DNA of 45,614 nucleotides, taken from assembly GCA_029263015.1 (NCBI GenBank), contig JAJCYI010000105.1:1-45614 (forward strand). Direction: 5' to 3'. The notes beneath the pieces were generated by a model. That model saw only the letters and a program-made list of their open reading frames with translations, did not search any database and was not told the origin of the DNA. This stretch comes from Saprospiraceae bacterium. GTDB lineage: Bacteria; Bacteroidota; Bacteroidia; Chitinophagales; Saprospiraceae. A program made the position numbers and the translations under genes. This document shows, piece by piece, positions 10,148 through 45,482 of the stretch. The first letter of the stretch is position 1. Each line of letters starts with the position of its first letter.

Positions 10148-10156
10148 TATTTTCTA

Positions 10157-10205
10157 TTTTTTCCAACTTCGAGGAAGTTTCAAACTTCCTCGAAGTTGGA
10201 AAAAA
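10157..10205. repeat. CTTCGAGGAAGTT palindrome, copy 2
   Basis: A perfect 24-bp stem with a single-base loop at 10181 contains the same arm core as the hairpin at 5827-5858. It lies between the DUF937 terminator and psuG and ends 25 bases before the psuG start. Confidence 0.8.
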
Positions 10206-10229
10206 TCAATAAAGCAGTAACATTGCAAT

Positions 10230-11132
10230 ATGAAATACCTCGACCTTTCTCCAGAAATAAAAGATGCCCTGAAAAATAAAAAGCCTGTTGTCGCTTTGGA
10301 GTCCACGATCATCGCCCACGGTATGCCCTATCCCCAAAATGTAGAAACGGCATTATTGGTGGAAAAAACCATCCGTGAAAATGGTGCAATTCCAGCAACC
10401 ATTGCCATTATTAATGGAAAGATGAAAGCTGGCCTGTCAAATGACGAAATTGATTTTTTGGGGAAAGAAGGACAAAACATTCCCAAAACCAGCCGCCGTG
10501 ACATTCCTTTTATTTTATCTAAAAAAGTGTCTGGCGCCACCACCGTCGCCGCCACGATGATTATTGCAAAAAGGGCGGGCATTAAAATATTTGCCACTGG
10601 AGGGATCGGCGGCGTACACCGTGGCGCTCCAAAAAATATGGACATTTCGGCAGATCTCCAGGAATTGGCAAACACCAATGTTGCCGTTGTTTGTGCTGGC
10701 GCAAAATCCATCCTCGATATTGGCCTGACACTGGAATACCTGGAAACCCACGGCGTCCCCGTGATCGGGTATCGGACAAATGACTTTCCAGCATTCTATA
10801 CCCGCAAGAGCGGATTTAATGTGGACTATAAATTGGACTCACCAAAAGAAATTGCCGCGGCATTAAAAATAAAATGGAAGATTAAATTAAAAGGAGGTGT
10901 CGTTATTGCCAACCCCATCCCCGAAAAAGATGAACCTTCTTTTTTTGAAATGAAAAAAGCCACTGAGCAAGCTCAAAGAGAAGCGGGTTCAAAAAATATT
11001 AAAGGAAAAAAAATCACGCCTTTTTTATTGGGAAGAATAAAAGAATTGACAGGTGGGAAAAGTTTGGAAGCGAATATTAAATTGGTTTTGAATAATGCGA
11101 GGTTGGCGGCGGTGGTGGCGAGGGAGATGTAG
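10230..11132 (+). CDS. psuG: Pseudouridine-5'-phosphate glycosidase
   Basis: The 300-residue product belongs to the PsuG (IndA) family, which reversibly splits pseudouridine 5'-phosphate into uracil and ribose 5-phosphate during pseudouridine salvage. Family motifs are plain: VVALESTIIAHGMPYPQN near the start, KVSGATTVAATMIIAKRAGI, the FATGGIGGVHRGA loop, DISADLQELA, VVCAGAKSILDIGLTLEYLE and VIGYRTNDFPAFY. Length is as expected. No psuK kinase is adjacent. The last 25 codons and the downstream spacer are duplicated about 2 kb further on (13100-13272). Confidence 0.95.
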   Translation: MKYLDLSPEIKDALKNKKPVVALESTIIAHGMPYPQNVETALLVEKTIRENGAIPATIAIINGKMKAGLSNDEIDFLGKEGQNIPKTSRRDIPFILSKKVSGATTVAATMIIAKRAGIKIFATGGIGGVHRGAPKNMDISADLQELANTNVAVVCAGAKSILDIGLTLEYLETHGVPVIGYRTNDFPAFYTRKSGFNVDYKLDSPKEIAAALKIKWKIKLKGGVVIANPIPEKDEPSFFEMKKATEQAQREAGSKNIKGKKITPFLLGRIKELTGGKSLEANIKLVLNNARLAAVVAREM

Positions 11133-11236
11133 GTTTTATTTTGGTTTATTCCTTTTATCTTTGGTGGGTTAAAGATGGAATTGTATTTGTGAAATACACG
11201 CAATATTGCGTGTAACACACGTTGGCATCAATTAAA
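11058..11236 (+). repeat. psuG 3'-end direct repeat, copy A
   Basis: This copy includes the last 25 codons of the intact psuG plus about 100 bp downstream. It matches 13100-13272 with 4 differences over the first 76 bases and looser similarity afterwards, ending in CAATTAAA in both copies. Confidence 0.85.
11195..11214. repeat. Perfect 20-bp palindrome downstream of psuG
   Basis: TACACGCAATATTGCGTGTA is self-complementary. It is followed by ACACGTTGGC, a word with a counterpart (ACACGTTTTC) in copy B. Copy B lacks the palindrome itself. Confidence 0.7.
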
Positions 11237-11240
11237 AAAA

Positions 11241-11980
11241 ATGACAAAAGAATTCACAAAAGAGAAAGGGTTTGACAATCACTTTTTTCTGGACAAAAAA
11301 AGACTAAAGAAGATTGTGGATATTATTTTGGCTAATGGAGATAAAAGGGGAATACAAACCAAAGTTGAAATTGTTTTAAAAAGAGAACCAACTGAGGAAG
11401 AAAAAAAGGTGTTTAGTATTTACAGAAATTTGTGTTCCATTAATTTGAGATAATAGGAAACGAGTACTTTATCAGAGCTGGAAATGATTACTATAATTCC
11501 AATGTAGGGTATAGAATAACAGAAGATGATAGTAAAGAATTGGGATTAAGTTTAGATGCAGAATTACAGGTTTTTATTGAAAGAACTTTGTCCACCTCCA
11601 ATAAGACAATTAAGAGTTTTCTTAGAAGACTTGACAACATCCTTCCATTTGTTTTTATAATCATTATTGGTGCGTTAGTTTTTAAACTTAAACCTGAAAT
11701 CAATATTAAAATATCAGAAGTAACGGTTGAACAGTTTTTTTGGTGGACGATTATTGTTTCGGTAATAGTTTGGATAATTGAATTCATATTCCAATCAATA
11801 AAACCATTTTCAAAAACATTTGAAGTTTACTATCCTAACAAATCTGTTTTTTACTGGGGCGACCAAATTGAAATATATGATAAGTTCAAAGAAAAAAACA
11901 GTAAAATATTTTGGGGGATAATAATTGGATTTATCGTATCACTTTTAGCTGGATTAGCAACTGCAATAATAATAAAATAA
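11241..11980 (+). pseudogene. Membrane protein gene with an apparent frameshift, unknown family
   Basis: Two adjacent frames look like one gene. The first (11241-11453, 70 codons) opens with MTKEFTKEKGFDNHFFLDKK and runs into a stop at 11451. The second frame is open from 11444 and reads FEIIGNEYFIRAGNDYYNS and onward without any ATG, through two or three membrane segments (ILPFVFIIIIGALVF, WWTIIVSVIVWIIEFIF, IFWGIIIGFIVSLLAGLATA) to 11980. Adding one A in the TTAATTT tract near 11441 would join them as CSIKFEIIGNEYF and give about 246 residues. The only start for the second part alone would be a TTG at 11540. It lies between the psuG 3' repeats, 41 bp upstream of the DUF1016 gene. Confidence 0.6.
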
Positions 11981-12021
11981 AAACTGTGGCTTACAAAGCA
12001 TAGAAAAAAGAAGGAACAAAC

Positions 12022-13044
12022 ATGAAAGAGAAACCAATAAATATAGAATTTTATAATCAAGTTGTCAAACTATTGCAATCGGCAAGAAGAAGGGTTGTCC
12101 GCACAGTAAATGAGACAATGGTTCATGTTTACTATGAAGTAGGAAGAATGATTGTTGAAGAAGAACAATCGGGAAAAGACAGGGCGAAATATGGCAGACA
12201 CCTTCTGAAAGAGTTGTCAAGTGTTTTAACTGGAGAATTTGGGAAAGGGTTTTCGGTAACGAACATCCAACAAATGAGGAACTTTTACATTGCTTACAAA
12301 AAACAACAGACAGTGTCTGCTAAATCTGAAAGGAATGAAAGGAAATTTGAGTTGAGTTGGTCTCATTATCTTCTGTTGATAAGAATTGAGGACATTGATG
12401 AGCAGAAATTTTATGAAATCGAATCCTCAAAAAACCAATGGAGTGTCAGGGAATTACAAAGACAGTATGATTCAGCACTTTATACAAGACTTGCGTTGAG
12501 TAGAAATAAAGACAAAATAAAGGAACTTTCGGAAAAAGGTTTGATAATCGAAAGACCTCAAGATGCCATCAAAGACCCTTACATTCTTGAATTTATAGGG
12601 TTGCCAGAGCAAAACGTTTATTCAGAAAGTGATTTAGAACAGAAACTGATAGATAAATTAGAACATTTTCTTCTTGAATTGGGAACAGGATTTACGTTTG
12701 TCGCAAGGCAAAAAAGAATATCATTTGACGATAAACATTTTAGGATTGACCTTGTATTTTACAATCGGATATTGAGGTGTTTTGTATTGATAGATTTGAA
12801 GGTTGGCGAACTAAAGCACCAAGATATTGGTCAGATGCTGATGTATGTAAATTACTATGACAGGGAATTGAAATTGGAAGAAGAAAACAACACTATTGGA
12901 ATTATTCTATGTCAAAACAAAAGTGAGTCGGTTGTTGAATACACTTTGCCAAAAGACAATGAACAGATATTTGCGAGTAAATACAAAACTGTTCTTCCAA
13001 GCAAAGAAGAATTAAAGGCACTAATGAATGAAAGAAAAAAATAA
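12022..13044 (+). CDS. DUF1016 / YhcG-type PDDEXK nuclease domain protein
   Basis: The 340-residue product has the DUF1016 N-terminal helical region (YYEVGRMIVEEEQSGKDRAK, KYGRHLLKELS, GFSVTNIQQMRNFY; about 10-100) and a C-terminal PD-(D/E)XK nuclease fold (about 185-320). The active-site pattern is visible as RIDLVFYNRIL followed by VLIDLKVGELKHQDIGQM. Length is normal for the family. Such proteins are frequent in accessory DNA near mobile or restriction-type genes, but their physiological role is not settled. The gene follows the frameshifted membrane gene and both lie within the repeat-bracketed segment. Confidence 0.88.
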   Translation: MKEKPINIEFYNQVVKLLQSARRRVVRTVNETMVHVYYEVGRMIVEEEQSGKDRAKYGRHLLKELSSVLTGEFGKGFSVTNIQQMRNFYIAYKKQQTVSAKSERNERKFELSWSHYLLLIRIEDIDEQKFYEIESSKNQWSVRELQRQYDSALYTRLALSRNKDKIKELSEKGLIIERPQDAIKDPYILEFIGLPEQNVYSESDLEQKLIDKLEHFLLELGTGFTFVARQKRISFDDKHFRIDLVFYNRILRCFVLIDLKVGELKHQDIGQMLMYVNYYDRELKLEEENNTIGIILCQNKSESVVEYTLPKDNEQIFASKYKTVLPSKEELKALMNERKK

Positions 13045-13386
13045 AAGCCTGTCTGACAATGCATACTTGTCAAGTGTGGTTAAACGCCCCACACGAGATA
13101 AAAGTTTGGAAGCTAATATTAAATTGGTTCTGAATAATGCGAGGTTGGCGGCGGAAGTGGCGAGGGAGATGTAGGGTTGGGTTTGATTTTTATTTTTGGT
13201 GGTTCAGAGATGAAAATATATTTGTGAGATATGGCTAATTGTTGCATGTAGTACACGTTTTCAGCAATTAAAGAAAAACAGAAATAGCTTTTTCTAAAAC
13301 TTGTAATTTAGACTTGTTCAATTTTTCATTTTTGCTGAGGATTAATTTTAAGTTACCCCAATTTTTAAACCAGAGACGTCGAATAT
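13045..13386. other. Intergenic region with psuG repeat B and decayed sequence
   Basis: This spacer contains repeat copy B (13100-13272) and the left inverted repeat of an IS remnant. On the minus strand at about 13275-13366 there is also a short coding-looking stretch ending in KLQVLEKAISVFL and a stop, with no start; it may be the tail of a dead gene. Confidence 0.5.
13100..13272 (+). repeat. psuG 3'-end direct repeat, copy B (partial gene)
   Basis: This copy encodes only KSLEANIKLVLNNARLAAEV and AREM-stop, the C-terminus of PsuG with one substitution, plus a downstream spacer. There is no upstream psuG sequence. Together with 11058-11236 it brackets 1.86 kb of accessory DNA. Confidence 0.85.
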
Positions 13387-13672
13387 TTAGTTGGTAAAAA
13401 ATATGTTTTCGTTCCAAAATAATGTTCGGCTGGCGGTATCCGGTTCAGGCTCGTGTGCCTGTGCCAAAAAGGCTGACTTCCATGTCGAAATCTGGTTTTG
13501 GTGGAGCTGGTGCTTTTGGGCAATCTCGTTCAGGTCCTGGCGCTCCTTGAGCGCTTCCAAAACCACTTTCAGCTTGAATTCGGCAGAGAATCTGCGACGT
13601 TTTTTTCCCATTTTGATGGCTTATTTTGCACTAAATTATCAACTAAGCCACTGGTTCGAAAATTGGGGGTAA
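13353..13672. mobile_element. IS3-type insertion sequence remnant with terminal inverted repeats
   Basis: TTACCCCAATTTTTAAACCAG at 13353-13373 is the near-complement of the sequence at 13651-13672 (one gap and two mismatches). Between them lies a truncated OrfA-type reading frame on the minus strand. The 320-bp unit looks like an internally deleted insertion sequence. I see no clear target duplication. Confidence 0.65.
13387..13611 (-). pseudogene. Truncated IS3-family OrfA (HTH) fragment
   Basis: About the first 55 residues match the IS3/IS911 OrfA helix-turn-helix start: MGKKRRRFSAEFKLKVVLEA, then a LNEIAQKHQLHQNQISTWK helix-turn-helix. A full OrfA has around 90-110 residues and is followed by an OrfB integrase, and neither is present. 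The last residues (SRTLFWNENIFFTN) look unrelated, consistent with an internal deletion. It lies inside the inverted-repeat pair at 13353-13672. Confidence 0.75.
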
Positions 13673-14435: not shown

Positions 14436-14529
14436 AGCCTATTTATAATAACTATATTCATTAAGCAATAGTCCGTGGGGTTATTTTTAGAACAATAGTT
14501 GGAAAACGTGGGCTTTTGAGAATCGGATT

Positions 14530-14576
14530 TTAATTATTTGCCTGTTTGGGGAGAACCCGAACACCCAAATAATTAA
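14530..14576. terminator. Hairpin between lipoprotein and HEPN fragment
   Basis: TTAATTATTTG pairs with CAAATAATTAA, and an inner GTTTGGGG/CCCGAAC block pairs imperfectly. An A-run follows on the plus strand. It could terminate the lipoprotein gene, but the T-tract is missing on that strand. Confidence 0.4.
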
Positions 14577-14683
14577 AAAACCTATCTGTTGCAGATTTTT
14601 CAAATGCACCAAATTTTATAAACATCTGAAAATCAGCGATTTAATAAAAACGGGACGAAACACGTGTTGCCATATTTTCAAAT

Positions 14684-14977
14684 TTGTCCCCAAAACCGCC
14701 ACGAACCATTGATGCTGTAAGTGGGTTATTGGTGCATTCCGAAATAAATACAAAAACTCATTCTGGAGTCAAGACTCAATTTTTTCTACATTATATCAAG
14801 ACTGGACAAATAGAATTGGAATTGGGCAAGGTCTATGCAGATTTATTCGATTGGCGGCAAAAGGGAGATTATGGAGATTTTTTTGATTTCACAAAAGATG
14901 ATGTCAGTACTATTTTGAAACCTACCAAACAGTTGATAGAAGCTATCAAAGAGGAAATCAGAAATGAAAAAAAGTGA
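14684..14977 (+). pseudogene. 5'-truncated HEPN-domain (UPF0332-like) gene
   Basis: The reading frame matches the C-terminal two-thirds of a HEPN domain protein: AVSGLLVHSEINTKTHSGVK, then LHYIKTGQIELELGKVYADL, then FDWRQKGDYGDFFDFTKDDV. HEPN proteins of this type are usually about 130 residues, with an N-terminal helix carrying part of the RNase site, and are often paired with a nucleotidyltransferase antitoxin. Here the N-terminal helix is absent and no ATG precedes the match. The only candidate start is a TTG at 14684, and the frame is closed by a TAA at 14645. No partner gene is adjacent. I read it as a decayed toxin-antitoxin or defence gene. Confidence 0.7.
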
Positions 14978-15039: not shown

Positions 15040-15909
15040 TCATCCACTCCGCTTCTTAAAAAACTTCAACAGCGCATTCACATAAGGCTCGTCCGTGCGG
15101 ATACTCACCGAATCAATTCCGCTTTTCGCAAAAACCGATTTAAAATAATCGAAATTGCCCCGGAACCACCCAGCATATTGGTCGCGCACGGTGGCCGAAG
15201 AAGTATCCAACCAGGCCAGTTCACCCGTCTCGGCATCCAATGCCCTGATCAATCCAATATTGGGCAAGCTCTCCTCTCGTTGATCGTATAGATGAATGCC
15301 GACAATATCGTGGCGGCGGGAGGCAATGCGGAGCGGATCTTCGTATCCTTTTCCCATAAAATCGGAAAGGATGAAACAGATACTCCGCTTTTTGATGACA
15401 TTATTAAAATATCTGAGCGCCTCGCCAATATCTGTTCCTGTATCTTCTGGATGAAAATCAATCAGTTCCCGAATGATGCGGAGAATATGTGATTTCCCTT
15501 TTTTGGGTGGGATGAATTTTTCAATTTTATCTGTGAAAAATATAACGCCAACCTTGTCATTGTTCTGAATAGCGGAAAAAGAAAGCACCGCACTTATTTC
15601 CGTGATGATGCCCTGCTTAAATTGATTGGCTGTTCCGAAATAAGCGCTCTGGCTCATATCAATCAACAGCATCACCGTCAGTTCCCTTTCCTCCTCAAAT
15701 ATTTTCACATAAGGGTCGCCCGTGCGGGCAGTCACGTTCCAATCAATATTGCGGACATCGTCACCATATTGGTAGCTCCGCACCTCGCTGAACGACATAC
15801 CCCTGCCCTTAAAAGCACTGTGGTATTCACCAGAAAAAATGTGCTTGCTCAAGCCTTTGGTCTTGATCTCGATCTTTCTGACTTTCTTTAAGAGTTCAGT
15901 CGTTTCCAT
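15040..15909 (-). CDS. DUF58 domain (VWA-like) protein
   Basis: I chose the ATG at 15909 (METTELLKKVRKIEIKTKGL) because it is the normal family start; the frame is open up to 16032 but that extension is not family-like. The 289-residue product has the DUF58 signature HSAFKGRGMSFSEVRSYQYG followed by DDVRNIDWNVTARTGDPYVK, then a VWA-like domain with the metal-site motif LLIDMSQSAYFG and a later ILSDFMGKGYED. DUF58 proteins usually work with a MoxR ATPase, probably in envelope or metal-centre maturation. Here the MoxR-type gene is adjacent but divergent, whereas in many Bacteroidota the pair is co-directional. Confidence 0.88.
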   Translation of the reverse strand: METTELLKKVRKIEIKTKGLSKHIFSGEYHSAFKGRGMSFSEVRSYQYGDDVRNIDWNVTARTGDPYVKIFEEERELTVMLLIDMSQSAYFGTANQFKQGIITEISAVLSFSAIQNNDKVGVIFFTDKIEKFIPPKKGKSHILRIIRELIDFHPEDTGTDIGEALRYFNNVIKKRSICFILSDFMGKGYEDPLRIASRRHDIVGIHLYDQREESLPNIGLIRALDAETGELAWLDTSSATVRDQYAGWFRGNFDYFKSVFAKSGIDSVSIRTDEPYVNALLKFFKKRSG

Positions 15910-16035
15910 GAAAAGCGGTGTATCGGTATGTAGGTTTACAGGTGCAAGGTGTATTGATATTTGAGTGTACCCCTTTTTTAATGTACAGTTGTACCTTGCA
16001 CCATCATACTGGTTTCCCACAAAAAAACGCATTTA

Positions 16036-44332: not shown

Positions 44333-44402
44333 CCTGTTGGTGCTGGACTCCGTCCAGTTCAGAAAGTACAAAAGGTCTCAGCCCTTTATTAAATAAAGAA
44401 CC
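44333..44402 (+). repeat. 70-bp direct repeat left of dinD
   Basis: It begins CCTGTTGGTGCTGGACTCCG and ends AAAGAACC, and matches 45367-45436 with four differences. It contains CTGGAC-TCC-GTCCAG and AAGGTCT-C-AGACCTT type hairpins (the second is perfect only in the right copy). Confidence 0.9.
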
Positions 44403-44510
44403 AGCCAAAGTCTGGCACTATCAGATACGGGTAAAAAATAGTATCCAAGTGACAGACTTAGACGAGCGGTGAAAATTTATTAAACAAACTACAATCAAAA
44501 CCCTGGAAAA

Positions 44511-45353
44511 ATGAAAAAAGAACTCATCACAGAATTATTTCAAAAATTTGAAGATGCTTGCTATGATTTAGACGGTTTAGAATGTTGGAGTGCAAGAGAA
44601 TTACAGGAAATTCTTGGTTACAAGGATTGGAGGAATTTCACAAACACAATTCAAAAGGCCGCAAAATCCTGCGAAAACTCAGGAGAAGATGTTAAAAACC
44701 ATTTCGTTGGCGTCAACAAAATGGTCAAATTAGGAAGTGGCTCTGAAAGAGAAGTTCAAGATGTAGCCCTAACGAGGTATGCTTGTTATTTGGTTGCCCA
44801 AAATGGTGATCCGGCAAAACCGGAAATAGCATTTGCACAAACATATTTTGCAGTTCAGACCAGAAAACAAGAATTGATAGAACAGCGTCTGCTCGACATT
44901 GCAAGGGTGAATGCGAGGGGAAAACTATCAAAATCCGAAAAGAAGCTTTCGGGGATTATTTATGAGAGGGGTGTTGACAATAGGAGTTTTGCTGTTATTA
45001 GATCCGAGGGAGACAAGGCATTATTTGGTGGACGTACTACTCAGTTTATGAAACAAAAATTAGGCATTCCTTCGAGTAGGCCTCTTGCTGATTTTCTTCC
45101 AACATTGATGATAAAGGCAAAAGATTTTGCTACAGAACTGACGAGCCATAATGTGGTTGATAAAGACCTAATGGGAGATAGAGCAATATCTAAAGAACAT
45201 GTGGACAATAATAAAGAGGTCAGAAGTATTTTATTAAAAAGAGGTGTAAAACCCGAAGAACTCCCACCTGCTGAGGATGTGAAAAAAGTTCAAAGAAGGA
45301 TTGATAACACAGAAAAGAAAATTTTGAAAGAAATAAAAAAAGATAAAAAGTAA
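44511..45353 (+). CDS. dinD: DinD-like DNA damage-inducible protein
   Basis: The 280-residue product matches DinD: a BRO-N-type N-terminal region (CWSARELQEILGYKDWRNFT, near residue 22) with the following TRYACYLVAQNGDPAKPEIA, then a C-terminal part with IYERGVDNRSFAVIRSEGDK and FGGRTTQFMKQKLGIPSSRP. Length is standard. In E. coli DinD is SOS-induced and inhibits RecA filaments. Here it stands alone between 70-bp direct repeats, so it looks like a gene cassette. No clear LexA box is visible upstream. Confidence 0.9.
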   Translation: MKKELITELFQKFEDACYDLDGLECWSARELQEILGYKDWRNFTNTIQKAAKSCENSGEDVKNHFVGVNKMVKLGSGSEREVQDVALTRYACYLVAQNGDPAKPEIAFAQTYFAVQTRKQELIEQRLLDIARVNARGKLSKSEKKLSGIIYERGVDNRSFAVIRSEGDKALFGGRTTQFMKQKLGIPSSRPLADFLPTLMIKAKDFATELTSHNVVDKDLMGDRAISKEHVDNNKEVRSILLKRGVKPEELPPAEDVKKVQRRIDNTEKKILKEIKKDKK

Positions 45354-45366
45354 ATGCAAATTACAG

Positions 45367-45436
45367 CCTGTTGGTGCTGGACTCCGTCCAGTTCAGAAAG
45401 TACATAAGGTCTCAGACCTTTACAAAATAAAGAACC
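45367..45436 (+). repeat. 70-bp direct repeat right of dinD
   Basis: This is the partner of 44333-44402, at a spacing of 1034 bp, and starts 14 bases beyond the dinD stop codon. Confidence 0.9.
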
Positions 45437-45482
45437 TGACAGGGCCAGCACAAACGAATACAAGTTTAAACCAACTCAATAA

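Follow-up and report, generated by a model that had tools for sequence, protein, structure and literature searches.

How single accessory genes move between bacteria without a transposase or an integrase is an open question, and it is raised by a locus in a Saprospiraceae bacterium (GenBank assembly GCA_029263015.1, contig JAJCYI010000105.1). We analysed this whole 45,614-nt stretch of DNA, hereafter the window, which is contig C105 of a draft genome of 245 contigs and 6.95 Mb. Here an Indigoidine_A gene, named psuG (pseudouridine-5′-phosphate glycosidase) in the original prediction and taken by us to be that gene, is followed by a predicted DUF1016 nuclease gene and then by a second copy of its own 3′ end. 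On the anatomy of this bracket, its recurrence at other genes and the allele-like divergence of the paired tails, we lean towards a cassette that came in at the 3′ end of psuG when the resident tail recombined with a tail belonging to another allele. The features of the locus are as follows.

10230..11132, + strand: psuG, the intact anchor gene, Indigoidine_A family (Pfam PF04227, E 2.3e-134)
11058..11132, + strand: copy 1 of the tail, the last 24 psuG codons and stop, continuous with the gene body
11133..11241, + strand: spacer 1, the downstream portion of copy 1
11195..11214, no strand: perfect 20-nt palindrome within spacer 1; spacer 2 has a degenerate version
11241..11980, + strand: two open reading frames (ORFs), 70 aa and about 178 aa long and not in the same frame, without a known family
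12022..13044, + strand: predicted DUF1016/YhcG PD-(D/E)XK nuclease with both domains, 340 aa
13045..13099, + strand: junction between the DUF1016 gene and copy 2, with two small predicted hairpins
13100..13174, + strand: copy 2, an orphan psuG tail in frame to its stop, with one V>E change and two silent codon differences
13175..13276, + strand: spacer 2, the downstream portion of copy 2
15040..16032, − strand: right-hand anchor gene, directly beside psuG in relatives G008 and G002

The upstream psuG is full length, encoding 300 aa with an Indigoidine_A domain at residues 9-299 in a Pfam scan, and the second copy begins at AAAAGTTTGG (13100), from which 24 codons plus stop run in frame through 13174. 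That the psuG 3′ end and about 100 bp of spacer are present twice had been proposed from the sequence, and a direct-repeat search and a nucleotide search of this genome both bear it out. With 11049-11240 as query, the long matches in the own genome were the query itself and 13100-13276 (79%); two further matches were short, 27 and 49 bases centred on the spacer 1 palindrome, and no other match to the tail and spacer appeared there at E <= 0.001. Chance is excluded as the source of the pair (blastn E 1e-40). The coding portions differ at 4/75 positions, which fall in three codons, two of them silent and the third the one residue change that had been noted before. The spacers differ at 26/102 aligned positions, plus gaps; coding and spacer thus diverge unequally in the aligned core (Fisher p = 0.0004).

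Between the copies, Pfam and NCBIfam scans found no integrase among the ORFs, in line with the original prediction. The DUF1016 nuclease described there also stands: the protein matches PF06250 (E 1.9e-59) and PF17761 (E 1.1e-42), corresponding to DUF1016_N and YhcG_C and both above cut-offs, as well as the PADLOC candidate PDC-S02 (E 6.4e-142). The accompanying membrane gene needs restating, as it consists of two ORFs (11241-11453 and 11444-11980) that match no Pfam or NCBIfam family above cut-off, are probably one frameshifted gene, and look membrane-like by inspection only.

The bracket is not peculiar to psuG. We collected 229 DUF1016 loci from a family DNA search, from named genomes (the 80 nearest relatives) and from a phylum search (30 + 100, the 100 stretches being hand-picked among the matches listed, ordered by score). 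Removing 19 duplicates and 19 loci with flanks under 500 bases left 191: the window itself, 15 loci of the family search, 67 in named genomes and 108 that the phylum search had supplied. As controls we took 155 genes coding for 200-450 aa, on 31 stretches that had given no match in the DUF1016 searches; a gene counted as bracketed if direct repeats flanked it on either side within 2.5 kb. Such brackets occurred at 35/191 DUF1016 loci and 4/155 controls (p = 1.6e-6). Most of these randomly taken controls are probably core genes; Fic, which served as an accessory comparator, gave a small sample. Tight brackets numbered 23 and 2 (p = 8e-5), and brackets made of gene tails 10 and 1 (p = 0.026), rising to 11 loci under a slightly looser rule; the single gene-tail control is a 1.5-kb tandem repeat. 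Among the 28 brackets with at least 70% repeat identity, 21 enclose no further ORF of at least 70 aa inside the tightest pair, and the repeat period is mostly 1.1-1.6 kb, the size of DUF1016 alone. Repeat length varies from 31 to 392 bp among the matches listed, and identity is very variable too. Assembly artefact was rejected as an explanation, as both a gene-tail bracket (L156, Pedobacter changchengzhani) and an array (L146, Chryseobacterium piscicola) occur in strain-titled records. E. coli yhcG proved uninformative as a within-species test: its stretch matched 5030/5426 genomes, 3307 of them over at least 80%, with nanQ under the match in 29/30 of those listed.

Gene tails form the brackets of 11 loci: upstream of DUF1016 the repeat holds the 3′ end of a gene on the same strand, and an orphan tail lies beyond DUF1016. 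The repeats comprise these 11 upstream co-directional tails, no tail of a convergent gene and one gene head. DUF1016 is the sole ORF of at least 70 aa inside eight of the 11 gene-tail brackets, while the remaining three add a RhuM gene (L233), a 223-aa ORF (L301) and the ORF pair of the window; no ORF in the 11 is named as an integrase. Pfam assigns the anchors to Indigoidine_A (psuG), AIRS (presumably thiL), glutamate/leucine dehydrogenase, M28 peptidase with prolyl isomerases, an AraC-type regulator and Eco57I methylase. We take the other five anchors to be FtsW-like (L319), restriction-modification (R-M) subunits (L266, L297, L301) and an ATP-binding protein (L233). The polarity of the tails is only partly informative, because a co-directional gene commonly precedes DUF1016 even without repeats: of the 190 DUF1016 loci with an upstream ORF, short-flank loci included, 172 have the nearest one on the same strand, versus 98/155 controls, and R-M operons probably contribute to this.

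Cargo other than DUF1016 is bracketed as well. DinD loci carried brackets in 7/46 cases (p = 0.003 versus controls), 46 of 50 having enough flank and the window's own DinD being excluded. For Fic the count was 3/43 (4/43 with 1.4-kb flank), neither clearly higher than in controls (p = 0.18) nor clearly lower than for DUF1016 (p = 0.07); of 50 Fic loci, six had no usable ORF and one had too little flank, and many of the DinD and Fic loci offered 1.5 kb of flank only. DUF1016 is not special in this respect, because DinD is bracketed about as often, and the idea that DUF1016 is a special self-mover is weakened to that extent. In the window itself a DinD gene (44511-45353) lies between 75-bp direct repeats (44333-44407 and 45367-45441) that are 92% identical and occur nowhere else in the own genome at E <= 0.001. 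Some loci are stacked. L297 runs gene tail, DUF1016, tail, second DUF1016 (PF06250 E 4e-57), tail; L315 holds a second, broken DUF1016; L301 and L233 hold a RhuM-family gene; and L132, L135, L140 and L146 are arrays in which different genes, DUF1016 included, are separated by similar repeats of ~70-390 bp. Because tail or repeat copies flank different cargo in such loci, the bracketed genes vary at these other anchors.

Are the paired tails alleles, or products of a local duplication? If insertion had copied the resident sequence and the orphan had then decayed, replacements should dominate the codon differences. Counted over their homologous cores, the 11 tail pairs show 51 silent and 22 replacement differences. 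Random placement of equal numbers of changes yielded 56.6 +/- 3.6 replacements and reached the observed value in 0/2000 runs, and 7/11 pairs were individually below 0.05. The deficit of replacements also held against an assumed 62% (a drifting orphan beside a constrained live copy; p = 3e-8) and an assumed 49% (p = 8e-4), and leaving out the four anchors that look like R-M genes gave 26 silent versus 6 replacement differences. Because silent differences exceed replacements across the 11 pairs, the tails look as if they mostly diverged while both were parts of working genes, in different lineages, and simple local duplication with decay appears disfavoured. The original prediction had left a choice between insertion at the 3′ end of psuG and recombination with a foreign allele that carried its own psuG tail; both are compatible with the anatomy, and the foreign allele is the better fit to the two psuG tails, with their similar coding parts and strongly diverged spacers, and to the silent bias over the 11 gene-tail brackets.

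A bracket at a glutamate dehydrogenase gene (L270, in genome G465) could be compared across nine congeneric genomes. In G812 (97% protein identity) the glutamate dehydrogenase site is empty: the orphan's tail and spacer run on there without a break into the sequence downstream (82.6% over 178 bases, then 90% over 443). The live tail of L270 has the G812 state at 5/6 coding sites that differ between the two tails, and its spacer matches G809 only, in the relatives searched. Site patterns of this kind suggest exchange between lineages rather than a clean single crossover, and a clean reciprocal crossover was dropped on a site-by-site table of the six differing positions.

For psuG we compared filled and empty sites directly. 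The gene had a match in 14/14 genus genomes, this one counted, and in 26/60 genomes of that search. An empty site of the kind that the original prediction had called for was seen in 2/14 stretches (13 same-genus and one same-family, several of whose contigs end soon after psuG): in G008 and G002, psuG directly adjoins the 15040-16032 gene, presumably DUF58-type, and the junction has no spacer homology to the window. In the window that gene lies 3.9 kb downstream of psuG. Because psuG adjoins it in G008 and G002, the interval between them, bracket included, would, compared with these genomes, have been gained or lost in one piece, acquisition being the simpler reading. In G010, the closest relative (79% in protein), psuG sits among other genes. 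Outside the own genome, the longest match to the bracketed insert in the 14 genus genomes was 431 bases at 66%, within DUF1016. A 26-residue psuG tail peptide, a query that could miss a decayed orphan tail, matched 119 of 398 family genomes and matched twice in the own genome alone. The idea that psuG is a hot spot in its own right was therefore dropped, and the expectation of different cargo between psuG tails was not borne out; it is at other anchors that bracketed cargo does vary.

Under the reading that we favour, DNA carrying another allele of the tail together with DUF1016, here with one broken gene as well, would recombine at the resident tail. One tail would then complete psuG and the other would be left as an orphan beyond the cassette; psuG would stay whole because one of the two tails completes it. 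The incoming DNA could be a circle, entering via a single crossover, or linear, with one homologous and one illegitimate end. We infer homologous recombination, no need for a recombinase encoded by the cassette, and a donor among related strains or species. Homology-facilitated illegitimate recombination, as outlined in an excerpt of PMC3240628, has one homologous and one illegitimate end and would give the same bracket; it would leave the orphan wholly resident, and the L270 orphan's having some states of a more distant group speaks weakly against that.

Several observations pull away from this reading. We found neither a donor nor a circle, nor two strains that differ in having the psuG insert. 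The psuG pair is indecisive when taken alone (2 silent, 1 replacement, P = 0.056), as are the uninformative tail pairs of L233, L297 and L319. When the other ten pairs were pooled, spacers were not more diverged than coding sequence (14/241 versus 76/914), a spacer figure limited by local alignment, which ends where spacers diverge. At L270 the orphan agrees with the majority of this more distant group (G591, G809, G733, G499 and G808), unlike G812, at only 3/6 sites; the other three show a minority state, a state of its own and the G812 state, one each, and the first 39 nt of the orphan are identical to the live tail. The surveyed loci are neither independent nor a random draw, 156/191 have no bracket, and the repeats fall under 70% identity in 7/35 of those that do. 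E. coli K-12 yhcG shows no direct repeat. Four of the 11 anchors look like R-M genes, and DUF1016 is a usual neighbour of R-M genes. Finally, DUF1016 itself may be irrelevant, DinD being bracketed nearly as often.

The bracket could also have arisen by insertion with a long target duplication, as for R-M genes, so that the copies started identical and then drifted. In the available excerpt of PMC3031569, citing Nobusato et al. 2000 and Furuta et al. 2010, all R-M system types are reported to insert with long, variable target duplications. The present loci resemble the insertions described there in lacking a recombinase of their own, in direct repeats of target sequence with variable length and identity, and in the empty sites of relatives (G008 and G002 for psuG, G812 for glutamate dehydrogenase), and some pairs are 95-99% identical (L107, L297, L123 and the L319 tail pair). 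They differ from the excerpted cases in their cargo, which is DUF1016 and elsewhere DinD or RhuM, with no R-M system in the psuG bracket, and in repeating the tail of the upstream gene at 11 loci, where the tails look like diverged alleles and not like self-duplication. The orphan tails also lack the replacement changes expected of drift, and psuG coding and spacer sequence have diverged very unequally. We consider this origin unlikely.

Still less probable in our estimate is site-specific integration in which the integrase is provided in trans, with an attachment site within the borrowed gene tail, as prophage e14 would use at icd. That prophage gives the same picture: in the text available from PMC11148124, e14 in E. 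coli K-12 carries a 165-bp duplicated icd tail with 12 nucleotide exchanges and two conservative residue changes. Both cases involve the 3′ end of a metabolic gene, one tail that completes the gene and an in-frame orphan tail beyond the insert, and in both the tails differ by few changes, mostly silent for the protein. The one-sided polarity of the 11 gene-tail repeats points the same way, to the partial degree that the co-direction around DUF1016 allows. Unlike e14, a prophage with a putative integrase according to the excerpts of PMC11148124 and PMC6379469, the psuG insert is about 2 kb and integrase-free; none of the 11 gene-tail brackets has an integrase-named ORF, the anchors are unrelated genes, and a common core was not seen by eye. 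An integron gene cassette would call for an attC site and an integron integrase, and the psuG segment encodes no integrase. Least probable of all, in our view, is homing by the DUF1016 nuclease, which would cut the tail of an empty allele at what became the left edge of the orphan and be copied in by donor repair. DUF1016 is predicted by Pfam to be a PD-(D/E)XK nuclease and is the sole ORF in most gene-tail brackets; against homing stand the brackets of DinD, which are about equally frequent, the other cargo between repeats in arrays, and the lack of a motif evident by eye at the orphan left edges. Integration in trans and nuclease-driven homing are both possible but unsupported.

With the same arrangement at other genes, entry by recombination between allelic tails points to a route along which single genes could move although they encode no obvious recombinase. 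A broader proposal, which we find doubtful, is that the DUF1016 genes found in Bacteroidota are recombinase-free mobile elements of one gene each, for which tails of host genes serve as addresses: they would circulate as cassette plus tail, enter by exchange with the resident tail, leave the host gene intact, and be able to build up, together with further cargo such as a second DUF1016 or RhuM, into arrays spaced by tail copies. If DUF1016 and DinD do travel with pieces of their targets, gene-end recombination would suffice for harmless insertion, places of insertion would be readable from orphan tails, and the model would be directly testable. Orphan gene tails would then be a simple signature of recent single-gene gains and of stacked cargo arrays. 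In the excerpts available, DUF1016 appears among transferred genes (PMC10782964) and as cargo of conjugative elements and plasmids (PMC4316617, PMC6300072). There the published DUF1016 rides large conjugative elements, and a stand-alone form between gene tails is not described in the excerpts of PMC4316617 and PMC10782964. Across literature on nucleases, direct repeats, integrases, gene cassettes and gene-end integration, none of the matches listed concerned DUF1016 between gene tails.

Several smaller features lie in or near the bracket. The core of the spacer 1 palindrome, ACGCAATATTGCGT, occurs at three other sites in the genome, one of them mismatched (C40:2643, C89:51018 and C195:14246), and at C40 an ATG-started frame follows shortly after, by eye. 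The palindrome was considered as a possible mobile signal: its core is found elsewhere in the genome, but the other bracketed loci have different repeats. Immediately 5′ of psuG, at 10156-10206, lies a perfect inverted repeat of 25 nt with a 1-nt loop. Outside the bracket, 13356-13668 is a remnant, presumably IS3-like, whose ends are 18-bp inverted repeats and whose 74-aa ORF matches HTH_Tnp_1; related sequence is present at C173 of the own genome (G000) and at G010:C271. Further downstream, 14442-14713 of the window is 93% identical over 272 bases to G010:C607:21588-21859, on a contig other than that of the G010 psuG, and the other two G010 matches in the same search were at 82% and 88%.

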